Part shown: positions 23,248 to 34,268 of the stretch, one piece after another
Layout: each line of letters begins with the position of its first letter
Position numbering within the stretch: the first letter of the stretch is position 1
Assembly: GCF_009882975.1 (NCBI RefSeq)
Contig: NZ_WTUX01000019.1
Span: 713,820 to 755,270, forward strand
DNA: 41,451 nt
Origin: Maritimibacter harenae
GTDB lineage: Bacteria > Pseudomonadota > Alphaproteobacteria > Rhodobacterales > Rhodobacteraceae
Direction: 5' to 3'
Position numbers and translations under genes: made by a program
Notes under the pieces: generated by a model
Told to the model about the DNA's origin: nothing
Databases searched by the model: none
What the model saw: only the letters and a program-made list of their open reading frames with translations

Positions 23248-23640
23248 TCAGCCCAGGTCGAGGAAGGCGCGCAGCAGGTCGTGGCGCGACAGCACGCCGA
23301 CGAGCGCACCGTTGTCCGTGATCGGGTAGGCGCGGAACGGGTCGGTCTGGAACGTCTCCGCCGCCGCGATGATGTCGGTATCCGCCGGAAGGGTGCGCGG
23401 CGTGCGCGTCATGTGGTCGGCCACCACGCCGGACCATTGCTGGTAATAGCTCGCGTTCAGGGCGGTGGTGAAACAGTCCTTCGGGGTCAACACGCCGAGA
23501 AGCCCCCCTTCTTCGCCGCAGACGCAGGCCAGCGGCTGCGCGCCTTCCACGAGCTTGGCGATGGCGTCGCGCATGGGCGTGGTTTCCTGGAAGATCAGCA
23601 TGTCGCGCGACATGATCGTCCGGATTTCGCGTTCAGCCAT
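23248..23640 (-). CDS. Two-CBS-domain protein at the end of the nqr operon
   Basis: 130 residues, entirely a CBS pair: TIMSRDMLIFQETTPMRDAI... for the first, and DHMTRTPRTLPADTDIIAAAE...FRAYPITDNGALVGVLSRHDLL for the second. CBS pairs bind adenosine ligands such as AMP, ATP or NAD-like molecules and often sense energy or redox state. The start at 23640 overlaps the NqrM-like gene by 8 bases, so the two are coupled. Location at the end of the operon suggests a regulator or accessory of the Nqr complex. That link is inferred. Confidence 0.82.
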   Translation of the reverse strand: MAEREIRTIMSRDMLIFQETTPMRDAIAKLVEGAQPLACVCGEEGGLLGVLTPKDCFTTALNASYYQQWSGVVADHMTRTPRTLPADTDIIAAAETFQTDPFRAYPITDNGALVGVLSRHDLLRAFLDLG

Positions 23641-23797
23641 CGGCGCGTCCTTCCTTGCGGCGCGGGCAGACGTCGCAGGCCCCGGAGCAGGCGGCCGCCC
23701 CACAGCTGTCCTGCGGCGCGCGCCCGGTGAGCAGCAGCCCGGCGGCCAGGCCCAGGACGCTGGCCAGGGTGATGGCGAAGACAATGATAACTTCCAT
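23633..23797 (-). CDS. nqrM: NqrM-like Na+-NQR maturation protein (54 residues)
   Basis: A short gene, easily missed. One hydrophobic helix (about residues 3-24, VIIVFAITLASVLGLAAGLL) is followed by a Cys cluster SCGAAACSGACDVC and a basic tail RRKEGRADG. This matches NqrM, the small membrane protein with four Cys needed to load iron into the Cys4 site between NqrD and NqrE. A near-perfect ribosome site (GGAGGTG) lies in the end of apbE. It sits between apbE and the CBS gene and overlaps the latter by 8 bases. The four Cys are at residues 32, 37, 41 and 44. Confidence 0.8.
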   Translation of the reverse strand: MEVIIVFAITLASVLGLAAGLLLTGRAPQDSCGAAACSGACDVCPRRKEGRADG

Positions 23798-23800
23798 CGC

Positions 23801-24805
23801 TCACACCTCCTTCATCAGGGCCGCGATCCGGCCGGTGCGGGTAAGGGCGAGCCCGCTGCCCTCACGGCTCACGATGAGGGCGTTCAGGTCGTTGTCGCGC
23901 GCGAGCCCGTGGGCGTCGCCCGGCCCGGCGGCCATGAGCGCGGTGGCCCAGCCATCCGCCTCCATCGCCGTGGGGGCCACGACCGATACCGAGAGAAGCG
24001 TTGTTCGGACCGGCGCGCCCCTGGCCGGATCGATGATGTGGCCGTAGCTGCGACCGGCGAAATCGTAGCCGTTCACCCGGTTGCCCGAGGTGGCGATGGC
24101 GGCGCCGTCCAGCGCGATGATCCCGACAAGGCCGGTGGAGCCGGCGCGCGGGTCCTCGACCCCCGCCTGCCACATGCGTCCGTCCGGGTGGTGGCCCCAG
24201 GCCACGACTTCGCCGCCGAACTCGACGAAACCGGCCTGAGCGCCGGTGTCTTGCGCCAACGCGGCGAGCCGGTCGAGCGCGTGCCCCTTGGCGATGCCGC
24301 AGGGGTCGAAGGTCGTGCCGGCATTCGTTTTCACCAACGCCTTGCCCTCCACCGCGAGGTGCCGCCAGTCCGGTCTGGGTGCGCCCGTTTCTATGGGGCC
24401 GAAGCCATAGCGGGCGACCAATGGGCCCACGGTGGGGTCGAAATGACCGCCGCTCGCCGCCGCGATCCCGAGCGATCTGCGCGCCACGGCAAGGAGGTCG
24501 CGCCCTTGCGCGTGCCCGCCGCGCCCGGCCCGGTTGAAGACGCTGACCGCGCTGTCCGGGCGCCACGGCGACAGCGCCGCGTCGAGGTCCGCGAGCATCG
24601 CGTCGGCGGCCTGGACGAAGACCGCCAGGTCCACGCCATCCGGCAGGGTGGCGCTCCACGTGGTCCCGAAGGCCCCGCGCGTCACCGTCCGGGTTGCCGG
24701 GGTGCGGCCGACGAGCGGTGTGGCAGCCAGCCCTGCGGCCGTGGCGGCGAGCCCCGCGCCCAGGGCCAGGACATGCCGCCGTCCGAATATGGCACCGTCT
24801 TGCAT
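23801..24805 (-). CDS. apbE: FAD:protein FMN transferase (ApbE)
   Basis: 334 residues. A twin-arginine-like signal (FGRRHVLALGAGLAATAAGL) leads to the ApbE domain with VFNRAGRGG, TFDPCGIAKGHALDRLA, FVEFGGEVVAWG and DPARGAPVRTTLLSVSVVAPTAMEADGWATALMAAG. This enzyme attaches FMN from FAD to Thr (or Ser) in D-x-x-(S/T)-G-A-(T/S) motifs, here presumably of NqrC. ATG at 24805 has GGAGGG upstream. It follows nqrF by 4 bases, in the same operon, and is exported to the periplasm, where its target domain lies. Confidence 0.87.
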   Translation of the reverse strand: MQDGAIFGRRHVLALGAGLAATAAGLAATPLVGRTPATRTVTRGAFGTTWSATLPDGVDLAVFVQAADAMLADLDAALSPWRPDSAVSVFNRAGRGGHAQGRDLLAVARRSLGIAAASGGHFDPTVGPLVARYGFGPIETGAPRPDWRHLAVEGKALVKTNAGTTFDPCGIAKGHALDRLAALAQDTGAQAGFVEFGGEVVAWGHHPDGRMWQAGVEDPRAGSTGLVGIIALDGAAIATSGNRVNGYDFAGRSYGHIIDPARGAPVRTTLLSVSVVAPTAMEADGWATALMAAGPGDAHGLARDNDLNALIVSREGSGLALTRTGRIAALMKEV

Positions 24806-24809
24806 CGCG

Positions 24810-26030
24810 TTACCCTCCGAAGTCGTCATAATATATCATCTGCCGCTCCACACCGAGCCTGCGCAACGTCGCGAGCACGGCCGAGATCATCAGGGGCGGG
24901 CCGCAAAGGTAGAATTCGCAAGTCTCGGGCGCCGGGTGGCGGGCGAGGTGCCGTTCGAGCACCGTATGGATGAAACCCGTCGGCCCCTGCCAGCGGTCGC
25001 CCGGCGCGGGGTCGGAGAGCGCAGGCACCCAGTCGAAACGCGGGTGTGCGGCCGCCATGCCCTCGAACTCTTCGACGTAGTAGAGGTCCGCGACCGTGCG
25101 CGCCCCGTAGAAATAGGTGATCCGGCGATCGCCCCCGGCCGCGATCTGTTCGTGGGCGATGGCGCGCAGCGGGGCCATGCCCACGCCGCCGCCCACGAGG
25201 ACGATGTCGTTCGCGGTGTCGCGCACGTGGAACTCGCCGAAGGGTCCGGACACGTCGAGCATGTCGCCCGGCGCGCGCGCGAACAGCCATGAGGATACGA
25301 TTCCCGGCCGGATTTCGTCCTCGCGGCCCGCAGGCGGCACGGCGAGCCGGATGTTGAAGACCAGGGTGCCTTCGTCCTCGGGCCGGTTGGCGACCGAGTA
25401 GGCGCGGGTCGTGGGCTCCTCCGAGCGCGCCGTGAGGTGGTGCCAGCCGGCATGGTCCCAGGCCAGCGCGTGGGCCGCGTCGACCTCCATCTCGGCGAAA
25501 TCGAGCGCGTAGGGCGGCGCCGTGAGCTGCATGAACCCGCCCGCGCGTAGCGCGATCCCGCGCGGCTCGACCGGGCGCAGAACGAGTTCGCGGATGAGCG
25601 GCGCCATCATGCGGTTCGACACCACCTCGCAGGCGAAGGTTTCGGCGGCCAGGATGTCGCCGGGCACCGTCACGTCCACGTCGCCGCCCAGCACGACCTG
25701 GCAAGCCAGCCGCGTGTGTGCCCGCCGTTCGGCCGCGGACAGCAGGCTCGTCTCCGTGGGTTGCACGGCGTTGCAGCCCGGCCCCGTCGCCTCGACCCGG
25801 CAGAGCCCGCACGTGCCGCTGCCGCCACAGCCCGCGGGGATCGGGATGTCCGCGCCGTGGAGCGTGGACAAAAGCGTTTCGCCGCGCTGCGCGATGATCG
25901 GGTCCCCGCCGTTCACCACCACGTGGCTCGCCCCGCGCGGCAGCCAGGCCCGCCGCGCCACCAGAAGCCCGAGGCTGAGGATCAGCACGAGCGCCACCAT
26001 GACGCCGGATCCGACGAGGATCTCGCTCAT
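24810..26030 (-). CDS. nqrF: Na+-translocating NADH:quinone reductase subunit F (NADH dehydrogenase subunit)
   Basis: 406 residues. An N-terminal transmembrane helix (about residues 5-26) is followed by a [2Fe-2S] ferredoxin domain (CGGSGTCGLCRVEATGPGC... and RLACQV; the fourth ligand is the Cys of LACQV). An FAD/NADH reductase domain comes next, with RAYSVANRPEDEG for FAD, GGGVGMAPLRAIA and ITYFYGART for NADH, and ends in YYDDFGG. It is where electrons enter the complex from NADH. The start overlaps the nqrE stop by 4 bases (ATGA). Confidence 0.9.
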   Translation of the reverse strand: MSEILVGSGVMVALVLILSLGLLVARRAWLPRGASHVVVNGGDPIIAQRGETLLSTLHGADIPIPAGCGGSGTCGLCRVEATGPGCNAVQPTETSLLSAAERRAHTRLACQVVLGGDVDVTVPGDILAAETFACEVVSNRMMAPLIRELVLRPVEPRGIALRAGGFMQLTAPPYALDFAEMEVDAAHALAWDHAGWHHLTARSEEPTTRAYSVANRPEDEGTLVFNIRLAVPPAGREDEIRPGIVSSWLFARAPGDMLDVSGPFGEFHVRDTANDIVLVGGGVGMAPLRAIAHEQIAAGGDRRITYFYGARTVADLYYVEEFEGMAAAHPRFDWVPALSDPAPGDRWQGPTGFIHTVLERHLARHPAPETCEFYLCGPPLMISAVLATLRRLGVERQMIYYDDFGG

Positions 26031-26638
26031 GACGTCACCATCTGGGCGAAGGCGGAAAACCCGAGCGACAGCATGCCCGTCAGCAGGAAGGCCGCGCCGA
26101 GGCCGCGCAGCCCGGCGGGCAGGTCGGCATAGGCCAGCCGGCCGCGGATCGCGGCCAGCATGATCACCGCCAGCGCGAAGCCCGCCCCGGACCCGAGCCC
26201 GAAGACCGCGCTTTCGGCCAGGTCGTAGCGCCGCTCCACCATGAAGAGGCTCCCCCCGAGGATCGCGCATTGCACGGTGAGAAGCGGCAGGAACGCCCCG
26301 AAGGCCGCGTGGATCGTGGGCACGAAGCGCTGGAGAAGAATCTCGAGAAGCTGCACGGTGGCCGCGATCACGCCGATGAACGCCAGCAGCGACAGGTAGC
26401 TCAGGTCGAGCTCCGGGTAACCCGCCCAGCCCCAGGCGCCGGGGGCGAGGAGCAGGTCATAGACCACGCGATTGAGCGGGACGGTCAGGCCCAGCACCAG
26501 CGTCATCGCGACACCCAGCCCCAACGCCGCGTCGACCCGGCGCGACAGGGCGAGGAAGGTGCACAGCCCCAAGAAGAAGGTCAGCGGCATGTTCTCCACG
26601 AACATGGCGCGCAGGAAGAGGGCGCCAAGATCGGTCAT
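26027..26638 (-). CDS. nqrE: Na+-translocating NADH:quinone reductase subunit E
   Basis: 203 residues with about six transmembrane helices. The two half-membrane Cys motifs of the Cys4 iron site are present: MPLTFFLGLCTFLALSRRV near residue 25, and TVQCAILGGSLFM near residue 120. Together with the Cys of NqrD they bind the iron centre inserted with NqrM. Both ends overlap neighbouring genes by 4 bases. It is equivalent to RnfA in the related Rnf complex, but the gene order and the NqrF partner mark it as Nqr. Confidence 0.9.
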   Translation of the reverse strand: MTDLGALFLRAMFVENMPLTFFLGLCTFLALSRRVDAALGLGVAMTLVLGLTVPLNRVVYDLLLAPGAWGWAGYPELDLSYLSLLAFIGVIAATVQLLEILLQRFVPTIHAAFGAFLPLLTVQCAILGGSLFMVERRYDLAESAVFGLGSGAGFALAVIMLAAIRGRLAYADLPAGLRGLGAAFLLTGMLSLGFSAFAQMVTS

Positions 26639-27297
26639 TCCGCGGCCTCCCGGCGGTCGGGCGGCGTGTGGGCCAGGGGCTCGGCCTGCTCGCTGAGCGT
26701 CGCGCGGATCGCCCAGACGAGAAGCCCCAGCAGGAAGAACGCGCTTGGCGCGAGGAGCATGAGGCTCAGCGGTGTGAACCAGCCGCCATCCTCGACCGTG
26801 CGCAGGACAGGCACGCCCATCAGGGTGCCCTTGCCGAAAAGTTCGCGCAGGGTGCCGATCACCACGAGGATCAGCGAGTATCCCAGCCCGTTGCCCGCCG
26901 CGTCGACGACCGACGGCAGAACCGGGTTGTGGCGCGCGAACGACTCGGCGCGACCCAGCACGAGGCAGTTGGTGGTGATCAGGCTGACGAAGACCGACAG
27001 CCGCTGGCTGATGTCGAAGAAATAGGCCTGGAGCACCTGGTCGATCACGATCACCAGCGACGCGACGATCAGGATCTGGACGATCAGCCGGATGCTGACC
27101 GGGATGTGGCGGCGGATCAGGCTGATGATCGCCGCGGACAGGACCAGTACGGTGGTCAGGGCCACCGACATGGTCAGCGCTGTGTCGAGCGACGTGGTCA
27201 CCGCCAACGCCGAGCAGATTCCCAGGATCTGGAGCGTCACCGGGTTTTCCCGGATCAGCGGCGTGAAGAAGATGTGGCGAAGCGTGCGGCGGGCCAT
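26635..27297 (-). CDS. nqrD: Na+-translocating NADH:quinone reductase subunit D
   Basis: 220 residues, mostly hydrophobic. It has the Cys motifs LGICSALAVTTSLDTALTM and LITTNCLVLGRAE, which pair with those of NqrE for the membrane iron site. A hydrophilic C-terminal tail of about 20 residues (HTPPDRREAAE) is longer than usual. The stop overlaps the nqrE start (ATGA) and it lies one base from nqrC. Confidence 0.9.
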   Translation of the reverse strand: MARRTLRHIFFTPLIRENPVTLQILGICSALAVTTSLDTALTMSVALTTVLVLSAAIISLIRRHIPVSIRLIVQILIVASLVIVIDQVLQAYFFDISQRLSVFVSLITTNCLVLGRAESFARHNPVLPSVVDAAGNGLGYSLILVVIGTLRELFGKGTLMGVPVLRTVEDGGWFTPLSLMLLAPSAFFLLGLLVWAIRATLSEQAEPLAHTPPDRREAAE

Positions 27298-27298
27298 C

Positions 27299-28099
27299 TC
27301 AGAACTCCCTCCGCCGGATCGCGTCGATCACCGGGCCATAGCCGTCCGGGCCCAGCCAAAAGCGCACCATCTGCGTAACGCCGCGCCCGGTCCGGGAGGC
27401 GCCGGTGATGCCGTCGACCTCGTAAGGCGAGACGGCCGGCCCGCGTGCCACGGCGAATTTCATCGTGCCGGCCGGATCGCGCACCTGGGTGCCCTGAAAC
27501 CCGGCCTGCCAGCCCGGCTCCTCGATCCGCGCGCCAAGCCCCGGGGTCTCCGACTGGCGGGTGACGGTCATGCCCGCGATCGTGTTCATGTCGCCGGTGA
27601 GCGCGACCATCGCCTCGATCGGCCCGTTGTAACCCGAGCCGATCATCGGGAAGATCGCGGTCTCGACCCGGTCGTCGCGGCGCAGGATGTAGATCTGGAC
27701 GTAGCGCGGACGCGTGTCGATCCCGGCGATGTCCTGGTTGTCGTCGAGGTTGGCATAGTTGGCAGGGTCCTGAAGCGCGGCGTCGAGCGTGTCCGGCGTC
27801 ACGTCGCGCGCCGCCATCCCGGTTTCGAGGTCCACGACCACGGTGGAAAGCGTTGCGCCGTCGTCGGCCTCGAGCATCGCCTCCATCCCCGGGATGGCGT
27901 CGATCAGCGCTTCGAGGCGAAGCTGGGTTTCCGCCGCCCGGTTCGCCTGCTGGATTGGGCGCAGGACCACCGTCGCCCCGGTCACGAACAGCGAGCACAA
28001 CGCGGCGACCAGTATCGCCACCGCGATCGTCTTGCCGCGATTGTCGTTGGGCAGGGCGAGGAAGCGTTTCCACAGCGATATAGGGTTCAGGTCAGCCAA
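27299..28099 (-). CDS. nqrC: Na+-translocating NADH:quinone reductase subunit C (FMN-binding), Ser at the flavin site
   Basis: 266 residues. One N-terminal transmembrane helix (about residues 25-45) leads to a periplasmic FMN-binding domain. The flavinylation motif near the C-terminus reads DGITGASRTGRGV, so the position that normally carries Thr-linked FMN is Ser235. The flanking residues (RFWLGPDGYGPVIDAI) match NqrC. ApbE motifs tolerate Ser at this position, so FMN could still attach; this is inferred. It overlaps the nqrB end by 8 bases. Confidence 0.87.
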   Translation of the reverse strand: MADLNPISLWKRFLALPNDNRGKTIAVAILVAALCSLFVTGATVVLRPIQQANRAAETQLRLEALIDAIPGMEAMLEADDGATLSTVVVDLETGMAARDVTPDTLDAALQDPANYANLDDNQDIAGIDTRPRYVQIYILRRDDRVETAIFPMIGSGYNGPIEAMVALTGDMNTIAGMTVTRQSETPGLGARIEEPGWQAGFQGTQVRDPAGTMKFAVARGPAVSPYEVDGITGASRTGRGVTQMVRFWLGPDGYGPVIDAIRRREF

Positions 28100-28874
28100 G
28101 GCGTCGTCTCCGTCGGGCGTGCCAGGCGAGCAGCGCGAGCTCGTCCAGAAGGGGGGCGGTCAGGTTGGCGATCAGCGCGGCGCTCAGGGCAAGCTGTACG
28201 GTGGCGGCCCCTGTCCAGAGCGAAAGGAACAGCGCGATGAGGCCGCCGTAGAGCAGGCCCTGCGCCCAGCGGCCCAGCTGCGTGGCCGCGCTCGTGACCG
28301 GGTCGCATGTGAGCAGGGTGAAGGTGACGAGGATCGCCGGGGCGATGAACGGGTCGGCGACCGGCAGGCCCGCGAGGGCGGCAAGCCCGAGCGCGATGGC
28401 CGCGCCCGCCATCAGCCGGATCGACACGAGCCCGAAGGCGACCCCGATCCCGAGGGCCGCGAGCGCGCCCCAGGTCGCCGTGATCGGCAGCTCGGGCCAG
28501 GGCGCGGCGGGGTAGCCGAATCCAAGGAACGCGATGGCGACCGTCGCCGGATGCAGGATGTTGCGTCCCCAGCCGCCGAAGACCAGTTCGCCGATGACCA
28601 CGCCGAAGCTCACCCCCAGCACGTAGGCGAAGGGGCCGGGCGCGGCGGGCGCGAGCATCGCGATGGCGAGCGCCGTGATGACACCCGCGAGCGAGGGCGG
28701 CTGCGCGCGCAGCAGCATGAAGGCGAGCTGCCAGGCGTAGACGATCACCAGCGTGACGAGCAGGCGTACGATCCCGTCCCACCGCTCGGCCGTGATCCAC
28801 GTGACCGCAAGTGGCAGGAGCGCGAGCAGCAGGAAGAGCGCGACGGTTTCGCGGGTCCAAAGCCCCTTGATCAT
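28092..28874 (-). CDS. nqrB: Short, divergent NqrB-like subunit lacking the covalent-FMN loop
   Basis: 260 residues against about 400-415 for a standard NqrB. The core is clear: LGVSFGVVIGELVFGGWGRNILHPATVAIAFLGFGYP and LTCDPVTSAATQLGRWAQGLL align with NqrB. Between them the loop that normally carries the D-G-x-S-G-A-T FMN site is missing; GFGYP runs almost directly into the next helix (PAAPWPELPITATWGALAAL). The N-terminal extension of about 100 residues is also missing. Both reading frame ends are coupled to neighbours (ATGA with nqrA, 8-base overlap with nqrC), so it is not an obvious truncation by frameshift. NqrB normally forms the Na+ channel and quinone/riboflavin part. Confidence 0.85.
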   Translation of the reverse strand: MIKGLWTRETVALFLLLALLPLAVTWITAERWDGIVRLLVTLVIVYAWQLAFMLLRAQPPSLAGVITALAIAMLAPAAPGPFAYVLGVSFGVVIGELVFGGWGRNILHPATVAIAFLGFGYPAAPWPELPITATWGALAALGIGVAFGLVSIRLMAGAAIALGLAALAGLPVADPFIAPAILVTFTLLTCDPVTSAATQLGRWAQGLLYGGLIALFLSLWTGAATVQLALSAALIANLTAPLLDELALLAWHARRRRRLG

Positions 28875-30139
28875 GGCGCGACCTCCTCCGCCTCGGCCCG
28901 GTCGATCAGGGTGCGCAGCATGTCCGCGACCTTCGGCGCGGCCTGGGTGAGGTAGTCGATGAGCGCCAGGTCCTCTTCGACGAGCGAGAAGGCCCCGAGC
29001 GCCCGGGCGCTTTCCGTATCCCCGGCGGAAATCGCGCGGATCAGCGGCATCACCGGCACCGCGCCACAGAGCGCCTGGTCGAGCCCGGCGGTGGGCACGA
29101 GGGGCAGGGGGCGCGCGGACCGGCCGAGGGCCGCGCGCAGCCAGTGCGGCGGTTTTTCGGGGCCGGCATCCATGAGCGCGGTCACCTGGTGCACGCCGTG
29201 CCCGACCCAGCGCGCGCGCGTGCCGTCGATGGCGGAGCCCGCCAGCACGATGTGGCGGCCCGGGACCACCTTGCCCAGCATGAGTTCGCGGATATCGGCG
29301 CCGTGCTGCACCCGTCGCAGAAGCGGCGCGCGCATGCCCGGACCGGTGATCGCGACATGCTTGGTCTCCGGCACGTAGCCGCTTCTCAGGAGCGCGCCGA
29401 TGTCCGCGACCGCTTCCACGTGGATGTCCCAGACCGGGCGCTCGAAACTGGCGGGCGCGCGCGACAGGATATGCGGCCCGGCTAGGCCCCAGGGGTGCGG
29501 CGCGGGCGCCTCGATCCGCGTGACGCGGTCAGAGGCATCGCGGATGTCGACCTCGGCGCCGCGCGGGGTCACGAGGAAGACCGGGCCCTCGGTGAGCGCC
29601 CCGATCGCCTTCAGACCCGCCGCGAGCTCGGCCCCCCGGTCATGAACCCAGTCGAGCGGGCGGCCCGCCCCGGGGCGGGTGTCGTGGGCCATCACGAAAA
29701 TCGCGGCGGGCCGCGCCGCGCCGAACGCCGCGACCATGCCCGGGCGCTGGCGGAAGGCGCGCCAGAGGCCCGCGTTGGCCAGAAGTGTCCAGATCGCGGC
29801 CCCGTCCGTGGCCTTCGGTATGTCGAACCGATGCCGCCCGCCCTCGCCATCATGGTAGAAGAGCACCGAATTCAATCGCTTGCCGGGATCCATGTCGATC
29901 CGGGCGACGCGGGCGGGCATCGGTGCGGTGATGGCGAAGTCACGCGCCTTAATCGCGCGAAGCACGGGTTGGCCCTGTGCCACGCGGTCGCCGGGCTCGA
30001 CCAGGAGTTCAACGCGGAAATCGCCGCGAAACGGCGAACTGATCGAGGCCTCGCTCGTGATACGGGTCGCGCTGTCCGCCGGGGCCCGCGCGGGCGCCCC
30101 GGTGGGCACGGTCAATCCGATGGCACTTCGAGAAGCCAC
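28871..30139 (-). CDS. nqrA: Na+-translocating NADH:quinone reductase subunit A
   Basis: 422 residues, a soluble cytoplasmic subunit. SPFRGDFRVELLVEPGDRVAQGQPVL is a lipoyl-like opening, and the centre has HVAITGPGMRAPLLRRVQHGADI. The C-terminal section (VVPGRHIVLAGSAIDG, CGAVPVMPLIRAISAGD) fits NqrA/RnfC-like folds. It is slightly shorter than the usual 445 residues. A GTG start at 30139 is supported by AAGGAG upstream. First gene of the operon, it is divergent from a pentaheme cytochrome gene with 114 bases between. Confidence 0.86.
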   Translation of the reverse strand: MASRSAIGLTVPTGAPARAPADSATRITSEASISSPFRGDFRVELLVEPGDRVAQGQPVLRAIKARDFAITAPMPARVARIDMDPGKRLNSVLFYHDGEGGRHRFDIPKATDGAAIWTLLANAGLWRAFRQRPGMVAAFGAARPAAIFVMAHDTRPGAGRPLDWVHDRGAELAAGLKAIGALTEGPVFLVTPRGAEVDIRDASDRVTRIEAPAPHPWGLAGPHILSRAPASFERPVWDIHVEAVADIGALLRSGYVPETKHVAITGPGMRAPLLRRVQHGADIRELMLGKVVPGRHIVLAGSAIDGTRARWVGHGVHQVTALMDAGPEKPPHWLRAALGRSARPLPLVPTAGLDQALCGAVPVMPLIRAISAGDTESARALGAFSLVEEDLALIDYLTQAAPKVADMLRTLIDRAEAEEVAP

Positions 30140-30186: not shown

Positions 30187-30215
30187 TTTGTGACGAATCC
30201 AGATTACCTGTAGAG
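30187..30215 (+). promoter_or_regulatory. Candidate promoter for the pentaheme cytochrome
   Basis: TTGTGA (30187-30192), a 17-base spacer and TAGAGT (30210-30215) form a weak sigma70-like promoter about 40 bases before the start codon. The remainder of the 114-base gap (30140-30253) should hold the divergent nqrA promoter, but no clear box was found. Confidence 0.3.
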
Positions 30216-30253
30216 TGCTTCCTGCCAACCCCTTCATTTTACGGAAGGAATTT

Positions 30254-31444
30254 ATGTATATCATGCACAAGAATTCCCGGCTGCCGCGACGCATCACGGC
30301 GTTCTGCGCGGCGCTCGCCGTGGTCGTGGCCCCGCCGCTTTTCGCCCAATCCGAACCGGAGGGGGAGATCGAGGCGTTGGGTCAGGAACTGTCCACCTAC
30401 GTCTTTCCGGACGCCGGTCCCTACACGCCGGAAAGCATCGCCATCGGCAATGCGCGCCAGATCGAACTCTGGGCGCGCTCGGCCCATGCCGATGCAGGCG
30501 CCGAAGCGTTCTCTCACTGGGACGAGGACGGCGAGATCCCGGGAGCCTGCGCCGCGTGCCATTCGGGGCAGGGCTTTCGCGCCTTCCACGGCCTGGATGG
30601 CAGCACGCCCGGGCCGCTCCAATCGCCCGTTCCCACCGGCGGGGTGGTGGATTGCGAAACCTGCCACAACCCGGGGCTGGCCACGATCGAAACGGTGACC
30701 CTGCCATCGGGCGTCGCGCATCCGGCCGAGGCCGCCGAAGTGCCGTGCCTGACCTGCCACACGGGCCGGGCCGCGGGCGAACGGGTGGCGGGCGCGACCG
30801 CTGACATGCCCGACGACGCGGTGAACCCGGAGCTGTCCTTCGTCAATCCGCATTACAAGATCGCGGGGGCCACCTGGCTCGGCGGCTATGGTGGTGTGGG
30901 GTATCACTACCCCGGCAAGACCTACTCCGGCCGCTTCCTGCATGCCAAGCCGGTCGCGACCTGCCTGTCGTGCCACGAGCCGCACGCCCTGACGGTGAAC
31001 GAGGCGATCTGCCTGACCTGCCATCAGACCGGCCAGCCGGACGAGATCCGCATCTCGCGCCAGAGCTACGACGGCAGCGGCGACACCGAGAAGGGGATCG
31101 CGGCGGACATCCGGGCCAACAGCGACCTGCTGATGCGCGAGATGACCGCTTATGCCGAGGAGATCGCCGGGATCGGCCTGCTCTATGACGGCGCGCGCTA
31201 CCCGTATTTCTTCGCCGATGCCAACCTCGACGGTGTGGCCGATCAGTCGGACGGGCGGCCCGTGGCCTACAACGGCTGGACACCGCGGCTCTTGCGCGCC
31301 GCCTACAACTGGAAGGTCGTGAACGCCGATCCGGGCATCCACGTCCACAACCCGCATTACGCGCTGGAGCTGCTCTACGATTCGACCGAGGCGCTTGCGA
31401 CCGCGCGCGGGGCTGATTTCGCAGCAATGGGCCTTCTGCGGTAG
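30254..31444 (+). CDS. Secreted pentaheme c-type cytochrome
   Basis: 396 residues with a signal peptide (about residues 1-32, ending PPLFAQ). Five CXXCH heme sites are visible: CAACH (99), CETCH (134), CLTCH (165), CLSCH (237) and CLTCH (253). A DANLDGVAD segment resembles an EF-hand/calcium loop, and the C-terminal part has GIHVHNPHYALELL, with conserved-looking His that could serve as axial ligands. ATG at 30254 has GGAAGGAA upstream. The family is not one I recognise with certainty. It could carry electrons to or from a periplasmic oxidase or reductase. Its position, divergent from the Nqr operon, may be chance. Confidence 0.78.
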   Translation: MYIMHKNSRLPRRITAFCAALAVVVAPPLFAQSEPEGEIEALGQELSTYVFPDAGPYTPESIAIGNARQIELWARSAHADAGAEAFSHWDEDGEIPGACAACHSGQGFRAFHGLDGSTPGPLQSPVPTGGVVDCETCHNPGLATIETVTLPSGVAHPAEAAEVPCLTCHTGRAAGERVAGATADMPDDAVNPELSFVNPHYKIAGATWLGGYGGVGYHYPGKTYSGRFLHAKPVATCLSCHEPHALTVNEAICLTCHQTGQPDEIRISRQSYDGSGDTEKGIAADIRANSDLLMREMTAYAEEIAGIGLLYDGARYPYFFADANLDGVADQSDGRPVAYNGWTPRLLRAAYNWKVVNADPGIHVHNPHYALELLYDSTEALATARGADFAAMGLLR

Positions 31445-31454
31445 ACGCCGCGCC

Positions 31455-33164
31455 TCAGTGGCTGTCCGACACCGCGACGCGCACGTCGAGGAGCGCTGCG
31501 CGCCCTTCGCTCCGGATCGCGTGAAGCGCGCGCTCCAGGGCGGCGGGCAGGGCGTCAGCCGTCTCCACCCGTTCCGCGTAGGCCCGGCTCGCCCCGGCGA
31601 TGGCCGCGAAGTCGGGGACCGGGGAGAGCGAGGTGAGCGGCATCTCGTTCGCGCGCGCCGCCGCCCCCTCGGGATAGGACAGCACGACGGAGCGGCGCAC
31701 CGCGTTCCACATCGCGTTGTTCTTCACGATGACGAGGATCGGCAGGTCCAGCGCCTCGGCGATCTGGTGGCAGGCGACGGGGTTCGCGAAGATGTAGGAG
31801 CCGTCCCCCATCGCCGCGATGGTGAGTTTGCCGGGGCGCGCCATCTGGGCGCCGAGCGCGGTGGGCAGCGCCCACCCCAGCCCGCCGGAATGAGGGTTGG
31901 AGAACAGGCGGTTCGGACCCTTGATCCGCATCGCGCCGGGCACCAGCCCGAGTTCGCTGATGATCACCGCGTCCTCGTCCATGATCTCCGACAGGCAATG
32001 GCTGAGCCACTCGGCCCCCATCGGCTCGGCGCCGCGCGCTTCTGACACCATCGCGTCACGCCGCGCGTCCCGGTCGGCCGCGCGTCGGGCGAGGTCGTCC
32101 CGGCGCGCCTTCAGCCGGTCCCCGGACGTCGTCATCGCATCGCTGATCGCCGCGACCGTCGCCGCGGGGTCGCCGGTGATGGAAAGGTCGGAGCGGTAGC
32201 CGCGAACCGGCATGCGGGCAAAATTCGGGTCGGCGCCGATATGGATGATCTTCGCGTCCGGTTGCGGGGCCTGGGTTTCCTCGATCCACGGCACGCCGGA
32301 ATCCACCACGAGGATCACGTCGGCCTCTTTTGCCATCGTGGGCGCATAGCCCAACGAGGCCGGGCCGTCGGAGGCCATCACGTTACGGATCACGAAGGGC
32401 TCGACGGTGCCGATCCCGTGCTGCCGGCCCAACTCGGACAGGGCCGCCGCAACGCGCCCCTCGGGGTCGCCGCGCTGGCAGATGACGAGGGGGCGCTCGG
32501 CCATGGCGAGCATCTCCGCCGCCGCCCGGACCGCCTCGGGGTCGGGCGCCGCCGGGGTTGCGGCCGGGCGCGGTGACGGATCGGAGCGGCGCGGCGCCTT
32601 GACCATCTCGGCGAGCGGTTCACGCGGGAGGCTCAGGTAGACCGGCCCGCGCGGCTCCGACTGCGCCAGCGACACGGCGCGCGCGGCAAGCATGCCGCCC
32701 TGGTCCGGGTAGCGCATCTCGTAGTTGAACTTGACCGCGTCGCGCACCAGCGCGGTCTGGTCGTACATCTCCTGGCCATACTGGATCGGGGACTTGCGGC
32801 TGCCCGCGTATCCCGCCTCGGTCAGTGGCGTGCGCCCCGACATCATCACCAGCGGCACGTTGTCGGACGCGGCATTCAGCACGCCCATCACCGCGTTCGC
32901 GAGGCCCACGTTCACGTGCACCATGACCGATTGCGGCTTGCCGGTCGCGAGGTAGTAGCCATGCGCCATGCCGACGGCCGCCGTCTCGTGCGGGACGGTG
33001 ACGGGCGTGGGCATCGTATCCGGGTCGCGCGCCGCGAACGCCTCGATGATCGAGGGGAAATCCGTGCCCGCATTGGCGAAAAAGTAATCGATCCCGCTGG
33101 CCTTCAGACCGGTCAGCAGCGCCTCTGCGCCGGTCTCGGGCGCGGGGGTGTCCGCGTCTGTCAT
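31455..33164 (-). CDS. Thiamine pyrophosphate-dependent enzyme (benzoylformate decarboxylase/acetolactate synthase-like)
   Basis: 569 residues with three domains: the N-terminal Pyr domain carries the cofactor-activating Glu60 in VPHETAAVGMAHGYY, the middle domain lies around residues 190-330, and the C-terminal TPP domain has GDGSYIFANPVACHQIAEAL and the ILVIVKNN metal-binding segment. The C-terminal motif is complete, so it should be active. ATG at 33164 has GAGGGAGG upstream. Substrate possibilities include a 2-oxo acid (decarboxylation to an aldehyde), which would fit the aldehyde dehydrogenase nearby. It is divergent from the TRAP transporter genes with an inverted repeat in between. The exact reaction is not decided by the sequence. 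Confidence 0.8.
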   Translation of the reverse strand: MTDADTPAPETGAEALLTGLKASGIDYFFANAGTDFPSIIEAFAARDPDTMPTPVTVPHETAAVGMAHGYYLATGKPQSVMVHVNVGLANAVMGVLNAASDNVPLVMMSGRTPLTEAGYAGSRKSPIQYGQEMYDQTALVRDAVKFNYEMRYPDQGGMLAARAVSLAQSEPRGPVYLSLPREPLAEMVKAPRRSDPSPRPAATPAAPDPEAVRAAAEMLAMAERPLVICQRGDPEGRVAAALSELGRQHGIGTVEPFVIRNVMASDGPASLGYAPTMAKEADVILVVDSGVPWIEETQAPQPDAKIIHIGADPNFARMPVRGYRSDLSITGDPAATVAAISDAMTTSGDRLKARRDDLARRAADRDARRDAMVSEARGAEPMGAEWLSHCLSEIMDEDAVIISELGLVPGAMRIKGPNRLFSNPHSGGLGWALPTALGAQMARPGKLTIAAMGDGSYIFANPVACHQIAEALDLPILVIVKNNAMWNAVRRSVVLSYPEGAAARANEMPLTSLSPVPDFAAIAGASRAYAERVETADALPAALERALHAIRSEGRAALLDVRVAVSDSH

Positions 33165-33247
33165 CACTGTCCTCCCTCGGCCCGGTACGGGGCCGTGTCG
33201 ATAAATTGTGCTTGTCATCCATGTTTAGCAACCCCAAACTGAACCCG

Positions 33248-33266
33248 AATCTCATTTCGTGAGATT
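33248..33266. promoter_or_regulatory. Candidate IclR operator between divergent catabolic genes
   Basis: A perfect 7-bp inverted repeat AATCTCA-TTTCG-TGAGATT (33248-33266) lies in the 150-base gap between the TPP enzyme and the TAXI binding protein. Size and placement suit a regulator site serving both directions. The IclR gene four genes along is the most likely owner. Confidence 0.5.
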
Positions 33267-33314
33267 TTGGTTCGCTCCCGGGGAGGGGAGCGACGCAACT
33301 AGGGAGGAAAGAAA

Positions 33315-34268
33315 ATGCGGAAACTCATTGCGTCCGCGGCGATGGCGGCTGGCCTTGTGGCCGGTACCGGCGCCGCCCTGGCACAGAACGTGGGCATCGC
33401 CACGTCGAACCCGGGATCGCTGTTTCACAACATCGGCACATCGGTCGCCAACGCGGCCAACGCCAACGGGCTGAACACCACGATCCAGCCCGCCACCAGC
33501 CCGAACCAGTACATTCCCTACGTGAATTCCGGCGGGATCGAGTTCGGCGTCGCCAACCTTCAGGAGGTCAACTACGCGATCACCGGGGATGCCTGGTGGA
33601 ACGGGGTCGAGAACCCGAACATCCGCGTCGTGGGCCACCTGCAGCCGCTGGTCGAAGCGATCTTCGTGCGCAAGGACAGCGACATCATGTCGGTCTCGGA
33701 CCTGAAGGGGAAACCGATGACGGACGGCTACACCGCGCAGAACACCATCCTGCCGCAGCTGTCGGCCTTCTACGCCACGGCCGGCATGACGCGTGACGAT
33801 GTCGAGAAGGTCTCGGTCGCCTCGGTGGTCGCGGGCGCGGATGCGTTCATGGCCGGTGACACGGTCGGCTTCATCTTCGCCCACGGCGCGGGCAAGGTGC
33901 GCGAGGCCGATGCGGCCGTCGGCGGCCTGCGTGCGCTCGGCGTGGGTGACGACAGCGACGAGGCGCTTGCCGCCGCGCGCGAGCACTGGCCCACCGCCTT
34001 CTTCACCAGCCTGCCCGAAGGCGCGATGCCGGGTGTCCTCGAGGAAACCACCTACATCGCGTTCCCGCAGGTCGTGTTCACCCATGCCGACGTGCCGGAT
34101 GACGTCGTCTACGAGATGGCCAAGGCCATGTACGAACAGGCCTCGGTCATGGGCGAGACGTTCCCGCCGATGCGGGCGTTCAAGCCGGAGAACATGAAAG
34201 GCGATCCCGGCATCGCCGAGTTCCACCCGGGCGCCCTGCGCTTCTTCGAAGAGATGGGCTTGAACTGA
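33315..34268 (+). CDS. TAXI-family TRAP transporter periplasmic binding protein
   Basis: 317 residues. It has a signal peptide (about residues 1-24, ending GAALAQ) and a mature domain with GIATSNPGSLFHNIGTSVAN, a typical start of TAXI-type binding proteins, followed by PATSPNQYIPYVNSGG and LKGKPMTDGYTAQNTIL. GGGAGGAAAG precedes the ATG. It pairs with the fused permease 10 bases downstream. TAXI systems bring in organic acids; the neighbours suggest an aromatic or hydroxy acid. Confidence 0.85.
   Translation: MRKLIASAAMAAGLVAGTGAALAQNVGIATSNPGSLFHNIGTSVANAANANGLNTTIQPATSPNQYIPYVNSGGIEFGVANLQEVNYAITGDAWWNGVENPNIRVVGHLQPLVEAIFVRKDSDIMSVSDLKGKPMTDGYTAQNTILPQLSAFYATAGMTRDDVEKVSVASVVAGADAFMAGDTVGFIFAHGAGKVREADAAVGGLRALGVGDDSDEALAAAREHWPTAFFTSLPEGAMPGVLEETTYIAFPQVVFTHADVPDDVVYEMAKAMYEQASVMGETFPPMRAFKPENMKGDPGIAEFHPGALRFFEEMGLN

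Follow-up and report, generated by a model that had tools for sequence, protein, structure and literature searches.

An operon on the minus strand of a 41,451-nucleotide stretch of the Maritimibacter harenae genome (the whole stretch analysed, here called the window) probably encodes a complex derived from NQR that passes electrons from NADH to a periplasmic multiheme cytochrome c and not to ubiquinone. Its NqrB is short, without the FMN loop, and a gene for a five-heme cytochrome c lies divergent from nqrA. The complex is best read, and we hold this to be likely, as an NADH:periplasmic-cytochrome oxidoreductase built from the NqrF-NqrDE-NqrC half of NQR. The genome, 4.25 Mb in size and 99.47% complete, has a single PF03116 gene, which was matched in two stretches, and encodes complex I as well.

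A short NqrB within an NQR-type operon

The order of genes on the minus strand is nqrA, nqrB, nqrC, nqrD, nqrE, nqrF, apbE, an NqrM-like ORF and a CBS-domain gene. The first of these, nqrA (28871-30139), encodes a diverged protein of 422 aa, overlaps nqrB by 4 bases, matches PF24836 (E 4e-23) and V. cholerae NqrA, and scores 158 bits on TIGR01936, where the cut-off is 321. The FMN-binding subunit NqrC (27299-28099) carries DGITGAS, which fits the published [S/T]GA[S/T]-like motif with Ser235 at the place of V. cholerae T225; a covalent FMN site is thus present, with Ser for Thr. Ser occupies this place in the nearest relatives as well (loci L003 and L058), and Thr is found in the other short-form loci in which the motif was recognised. 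Cluster-Cys motifs are kept in both NqrD (26635-27297; 293.5 bits on PRK09292, cut-off 235) and NqrE (26027-26638; 254.7 bits on TIGR01940, cut-off 247.55), and NqrF (24810-26030, with the ATG at 26030 picked by reading) has Fer2, FAD and NAD domains and scores 380 bits on TIGR01941, cut-off 295.

Downstream are the flavin transferase gene apbE (23801-24829; PF02424, E 5.5e-63), an ORF of 54 aa with four Cys (23633-23797) and a gene for a two-CBS-domain protein (23248-23646), which has a homologue at most short-form loci. The first-pass annotation had described the operon as otherwise complete, with apbE and an NqrM-like gene. This holds for nqrA to nqrF and for apbE; the NqrM-like ORF gave no Pfam match at E 0.01 and takes its name from position and Cys only.

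Equivalog cut-offs are exceeded by NqrD (279 bits, cut-off 244.85), NqrE (254.7, 247.55) and NqrF (380, 295) and missed by NqrA (158, 321), NqrB (63, 350) and NqrC (140.3, 144), while a full-length NQR locus used for comparison (L080) passes the TIGR models for NqrA, NqrB and NqrC. On the same NCBIfam models the window and L080 score, respectively, 279 and 336 bits for NqrD, 255 and 333 for NqrE, 140 and 232 for NqrC, 380 and 693 for NqrF, 158 and 474 for NqrA, and 63 and 543 for NqrB. Judged by these scores, NqrA and NqrB, the quinone side, appear to have diverged most, and NqrD, NqrE and NqrF still look NQR-like. In sequence, the route that leads from NADH as far as the NqrC FMN at the periplasmic face is intact; the onward path to quinone is not.

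The nqrB gene (28092-28874, minus strand) encodes 260 residues with the NqrB/RnfD fold, minus the FMN loop, the N-terminal quinone region and most of the loop between TM helices 1 and 2. The protein contains FGGWGRNILHP and LTCDPVTSAATQLG and matches Pfam NQR2_RnfD_RnfE (E 3e-20); PF03116 is its sole Pfam match, and PF00175 sits in the separate NqrF. Two NqrB equivalog models give it 62.9 and 75.9 bits against cut-offs of 349.9 and 414. An AlphaFold model built with 39 sequences has a mean pLDDT of 94.4 and aligns to structures of NqrB and RnfD at query TM-scores of 0.74-0.79, so that the fold is predicted to be retained. The ORF and the Pfam match bear out the first-pass annotation, which had noted a 260-residue NqrB with a conserved core and a missing covalent-FMN loop. 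Its estimate of about 100 missing N-terminal residues needs revision: against L080 the protein instead shows five gaps, of 45 residues at the N-terminus, 40 between TM helices 1 and 2, 44 at the FMN loop, and then 4 and 9.

The short NqrB is a conserved form and results neither from a frameshift nor from a wrong start. Both explanations were ruled out by the lengths and frames of the relatives, which measure 249-278 residues (n=50 distinct), with D-x-x-[S/T]-G-A-[T/S] in none of the 50. In six relatives (L040, L041, L052, L056, L072, L074) the stop-to-stop frames are only 266-269 codons, so there is no hidden N-terminus. That the gene is a solitary oddity was ruled out as well, since it is conserved across genomes.

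A family search matched 110 of 394 genomes, 51 of them carriers of a short NqrB (30 of these close and 21 distant, with G159 and G245 represented by fragments), and most of the other matching genomes carry full-length NqrB. These 51 genomes were chosen by reading rows, with full-length matches outside the 400-aa frame class and E up to 2e-14; G231, G361, G032, G323 and a second weak row of G366 were left out. When a survey for the same short form was run with a profile of 39 short forms, matches were obtained in 35 of 292 genomes of the order, all at least 90% complete (E up to 4e-49), in 3 of 385 of the class (G000, G294, G508; E up to 1e-39) and in 5 of 398 of the phylum (E up to 1e-59; one of the five has an internal stop). 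Across the family, order, class and phylum searches, all short forms but that of G508 fall in the window's family. Two genomes, G099 and G125, contain both a full-length and a short NQR. Mesobacterium pallidum T40-1 and Maliponia aquimaris CECT 8898 are among the hosts of the module.

Sites lost and kept in NqrB

Residue numbers below are V. cholerae NqrB positions, and site counts cover 23 short rows in one alignment (A1) unless otherwise given. In this alignment the FMN-loop position is deleted: T236 is missing from all 23 short rows and is Thr in 5/5 full-length rows, and D-x-x-[S/T]GAT is present in 9/9 full-length NqrB rows. A Thr/Ser flavin motif elsewhere in the window NqrB was sought as [ST][GS]A[ST] and is absent. 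The looser string [STG]GA[TS] occurs in only two of 52 short rows (50 distinct), as TGAT at 221 in L044 and GGAS at 132, near the lost loop, in L050; both lack the upstream Asp.

In V. cholerae NQR, quinone is reported to bind with the N-terminal helices of NqrB, and the same study proposes a Na+ path through D52, E157, a further Glu, F338 and F342 (PMC10643135); changes at G140 and G141 are reported to disrupt the interaction with ubiquinone (PMC4014512). Among the short rows G140 and E157 are replaced in 23/23, G141 in 18/23 (kept in 5/23) and E144 in 17/23 (kept in 6/23). F338 is kept in 11/23 and F342 in 12/23, and both are absent from all ten rows of the window's group, where E274 is replaced too, in a stretch of uncertain alignment. 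D397 is kept in 23/23. The N-terminal quinone region, G140 and E157 have been lost along with the FMN site.

Riboflavin is described as held by T162, N200, N203 and D346 (PMC9325719). The window's group (21 rows) has T at T162 in 18 rows, N200 in 21, N203 in 16 and D at D346 in 19, with H at N203 in 5/21 rows, that of the window included. The corresponding numbers for the distant group (18 rows) are 13, 3, 6 and 17; G or S stands at N200 in 15/18 rows and S, G or A at N203 in 11/18. By this count the window's group retains most of the ligand positions, and in the distant group they have eroded. Because the window's group keeps most of these positions, its NqrB may still carry an electron, which counts against the cytochrome reading, as does the partial retention of G141, E144, F338 and F342.

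The chief rival, direct transfer from the NqrC FMN to the NqrB riboflavin, starts from the same sites. The complex would still be an NADH:quinone oxidoreductase, with one covalent flavin fewer, NqrC docked closer in the space of the lost loop, its FMN reducing the NqrB riboflavin directly and quinone reduced next, and with the cytochrome as a side branch. We consider this unlikely. A precedent exists in a two-subunit Nqr/Rnf-like complex that is described as lacking the NqrB/RnfD Thr and that was modelled with an NqrC-like FMN near a non-covalent flavin site (PMC11334425), and the rival would also account for the kept riboflavin ligands, for G141 in 5/23 rows and for the presence of nqrA at nearly every short-form locus (53/54), which would be odd if the quinone side were useless. 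However, the N-terminal helices of the quinone site reported for V. cholerae are absent, and G140 and E157, at which the published work places quinone or Na+ function, are replaced throughout (PMC10643135, PMC9325719, PMC4014512). The distant group shares the gene module in spite of its replacements at N200 and N203, and G508, in which the NqrB is short as well, gave no NqrA match in a genome rated 99% complete. The rival fits the window's group more readily than it fits the distant group or G508.

The five-heme cytochrome and its partners

The cytochrome gene (30215-31444, plus strand) encodes 409 aa with five CxxCH and, by reading, a signal-like N-terminus. We tabulated 54 distinct short-form loci against 21 full-length loci (9 from the family search, 12 from wider searches), having dropped L004 and L007 as duplicates of L058 and L095 (identical NqrB) and left out L088, L089, L096, L147 and L148 as weak or Rnf-type. 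A homologue of the cytochrome is found beside 49/54 short-form and 0/21 full-length loci (Fisher 3e-14; 8e-8 against only the 9 full-length loci of the window's family), values that overstate independence, as the genomes are related. It lies on the strand opposite nqrA in 45/49 loci and on the same strand in four (L046, L047, L053, L146). An ORF with at least two CxxCH is present in 51/54 short-form and 0/21 full-length loci, and the equivalent counts are 49/54 and 1/21 for the CBS gene, 49/54 and 16/21 for ApbE, and 53/54 and 20/21 for NqrA. Contig ends truncate some of the loci on both sides. Absences count for less in the 12 full-length loci from outside the family, which span 6-11 kb, compared with 13-17 kb in most cases elsewhere; the 9 family loci are 10-17 kb.

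Among the five short-form loci that lack the five-heme cytochrome, L039 and L145 each contain a tetraheme c-type ORF, and in L048 an EB_dh (ethylbenzene-dehydrogenase-type) protein with CxxCH (1370-2788) stands near nqrA at the usual place of the cytochrome. No cytochrome was seen near the short NQR in L043 and L054; the genome of L054 (G346) has a copy on another contig. Searched with a cytochrome profile, the 394 genomes gave 66 matches, in 47/51 short-form genomes and 19/343 others; the short-form genomes without a match are G036 (which holds L043), G012, G108 and G245. The 19 genomes with the cytochrome and without the short NQR, like the two loci with no cytochrome nearby and the four with the cytochrome on the strand of nqrA, count against the cytochrome reading. 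In G229, from a species of the window's own genus, NqrB is full-length and the cytochrome profile matched nothing. The cytochrome model has a pLDDT of 81 and its best PDB match an E of 0.032; the matches to OcwA and NrfA were weak and hence were not used to assign a function from the fold.

Other neighbours were also observed. In 16/50 short-form loci compared, a cation:proton-antiporter-like protein (by reading; L091 from 2291, and relatives) is encoded close to the module. In the window a thiamine-diphosphate enzyme (minus strand) and an NMT1/TAXI-like binding protein (plus strand) adjoin the cytochrome at 31455-34268. A fixed link of these two to the module was rejected, as the set is absent from other loci; TPP-like matches occur only in L054 and L083, and a TAXI-like match in L088.

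Two copies of the module, L053 (G013) and L146 (G1089), are broken, with several subunits in pieces. Together with the missing NqrA of G508 they would fit an eroding NQR whose NqrB is heading for loss, with no particular new function. This seems very improbable to us, as most of the 54 loci have open frames and a conserved order, D244, P122, G91 and further columns are conserved in the short NqrB (39 rows), and the module is kept across two groups that differ by at least 60% in NqrB.

The cytochrome family has a second kind of partner. We read 12 loci in which the cytochrome stands away from a short NQR, 9 from the 19 cytochrome-only genomes and 3 from genomes that have a short form as well (G349, G047 and G346). 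In nine of the 12 (L169-L176, L178) the gene divergent from the cytochrome is about 490-580 codons long and its product has an NqrF-like NAD domain, and a Pfam scan of six of these proteins found Ferric_reduct, FAD_binding_8 and NAD_binding_1 in all six. The remaining three loci (L168, L177, L179) have no ferric-reductase-type neighbour. The nine are apparently a separate NAD(P)H-to-periplasm system, and one cytochrome family thus accompanies two unrelated membrane NAD(P)H dehydrogenases. The 29 NQR-paired rows belong, in the cytochrome tree, to a clade of 31 (support 81) that also includes the orphans L168 and L179; the row of L177 is a wrong frame with nine CxxCH and was disregarded.

Ferric-reductase-type NAD(P)H dehydrogenases are a class of enzymes that export electrons from NAD(P)H, and it is mainly this alternative pairing that leads us to read the short NQR as an electron exporter. 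The same pairing argues against a reversed path, in which the cytochrome would take electrons from a periplasmic oxidation and the ion gradient would drive them to NAD+, an arrangement we regard as quite improbable. It would use the same parts, a cytochrome could donate as well as accept, and reverse operation of RNF/NQR-class complexes has been reported for some anaerobes (PMC11889175, PMC12174285).

Proposed electron path, descent and relation to known systems

In the favoured reading, transfer to the periplasmic cytochrome, electrons from NADH would enter the FAD and 2Fe-2S of NqrF, pass to the membrane 2Fe-2S of NqrD/NqrE and from there to the covalent FMN of NqrC at the periplasmic face. 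NqrC would then reduce the five-heme cytochrome, which would hand the electrons to a further acceptor. The steps as far as NqrC would follow from homology with NQR; the step from NqrC to the cytochrome is suggested by gene pairing, and the direction of flow by the ferric-reductase partner only. NqrB may be mainly a scaffold or docking place for NqrC, because its fold is kept while the FMN and the known features of the quinone site are gone. If ions are pumped, this is most likely done by the NqrD/NqrE switch, which is kept, and the ion path, should pumping be found, would therefore lie in NqrD/NqrE, since NqrB of the window's group has lost E157 and the F338/F342 gate. That the complex is in full an ion-pumping NADH:periplasmic-cytochrome c oxidoreductase, half an NQR that avoids the quinone pool and in which NqrB has ceased to carry electrons, is a more tentative proposal and, taken as a whole, somewhat doubtful.

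The first-pass annotation had suggested one covalent flavin fewer than in Na+-NQR and a different electron path. The former gains support from the absence of the FMN site throughout a clade in which the short form is conserved; the latter is supported by the gene pairing, which suggests that the partner is a periplasmic cytochrome. A different ion, its alternative suggestion, is neither favoured nor disfavoured by these results. The losses at the quinone site, the place of the five-heme cytochrome and the CBS gene in the module, and the conserved family of short forms go beyond that annotation.

In a tree of NqrD and NqrE with Rnf (L096, L147) as outgroup, 49 short forms make one clade (UFBoot 94; FastTree support 0.60), which is joined at 99 by L159 (G748); the remaining 19 full-length rows group with a support of 68. 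The NqrB of L159, sister to the short forms, keeps SGAT, and the ApbE-CBS arrangement is present there, with no ORF of at least two CxxCH in the stretches read. Because the short clade joins a locus that keeps SGAT, the loss of the FMN is taken to be derived, and the suggested order is the CBS gene first, then FMN loss and the cytochrome. The one short form from outside the family, L145 (G508), is the most extreme: by reading, its NqrB lacks the FGGxGRN motif and has Ser at the D346 place; the locus contains a CBS gene, the tetraheme ORF and, by reading, an alanine-dehydrogenase-like ORF at the place of nqrA.

The operon resembles Na+-NQR (V. cholerae structures 7xk3, 8a1t and others) in its six homologous subunits in the same order, apbE, the NqrD/E Cys motifs, the NqrF domains, the NqrC FMN motif and the NqrB fold. 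It differs in an NqrB without the FMN loop, the N-terminal quinone region, G140 and E157, in a strongly diverged NqrA, and in the added cytochrome and CBS genes. We file it as an NQR-derived variant and not as Na+-NQR proper, because the NqrB FMN and quinone-site residues and the equivalog scores of NqrA, NqrB and NqrC all fail. The two-subunit Nqr/Rnf-like systems (Meheust 2021, Huang 2024), for which the authors propose electron export, are described as similar in having an NqrB/RnfD-type protein without the flavinylation Thr beside an NqrC/RnfG-type subunit. However, as described, their NqrB is fused to a C-terminal NAD-binding domain (PF00175) and the two subunits are the only ones, whereas six Nqr subunits are encoded here.

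Unlike Rnf, for which a review describes covalent FMN in RnfD in general terms (PMC12174285), the window has homologues of NqrF and NqrA and not the RnfB/RnfC iron-sulfur subunits. The Rnf of Methanosarcina acetivorans, according to the same review, is likewise a pump of the NQR/RNF class with a multiheme c-type cytochrome as redox partner, but it is archaeal, built of Rnf subunits and takes ferredoxin as donor (PMC12174285). The ferric-reductase-type dehydrogenases share the divergent five-heme cytochrome and an NAD-binding domain, but are single proteins of unrelated membrane fold, with no ion-pump homology. In the open-licence papers searched we found no description of an NQR that combines six subunits, a short NqrB lacking FMN and a cytochrome; a prior listing in supplementary gene tables is possible.

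There is disagreement over the subunit that moves the ion in NQR/RNF pumps. A study of V. cholerae NQR assigns this role to NqrB (PMC10643135), and work on A. woodii Rnf places Na+ movement in the RnfA/E pair, homologous to NqrE/NqrD, and not in RnfD (PMC11889175). The short-form family would be a natural test, because it keeps NqrD/E and has an NqrB stripped of its FMN, of E157 and, in the window's group, of both gate phenylalanines. If the favoured reading is true, there would be a route from NADH to a periplasmic cytochrome that avoids quinone, in a family with the short form in 35 of the 292 genomes searched.
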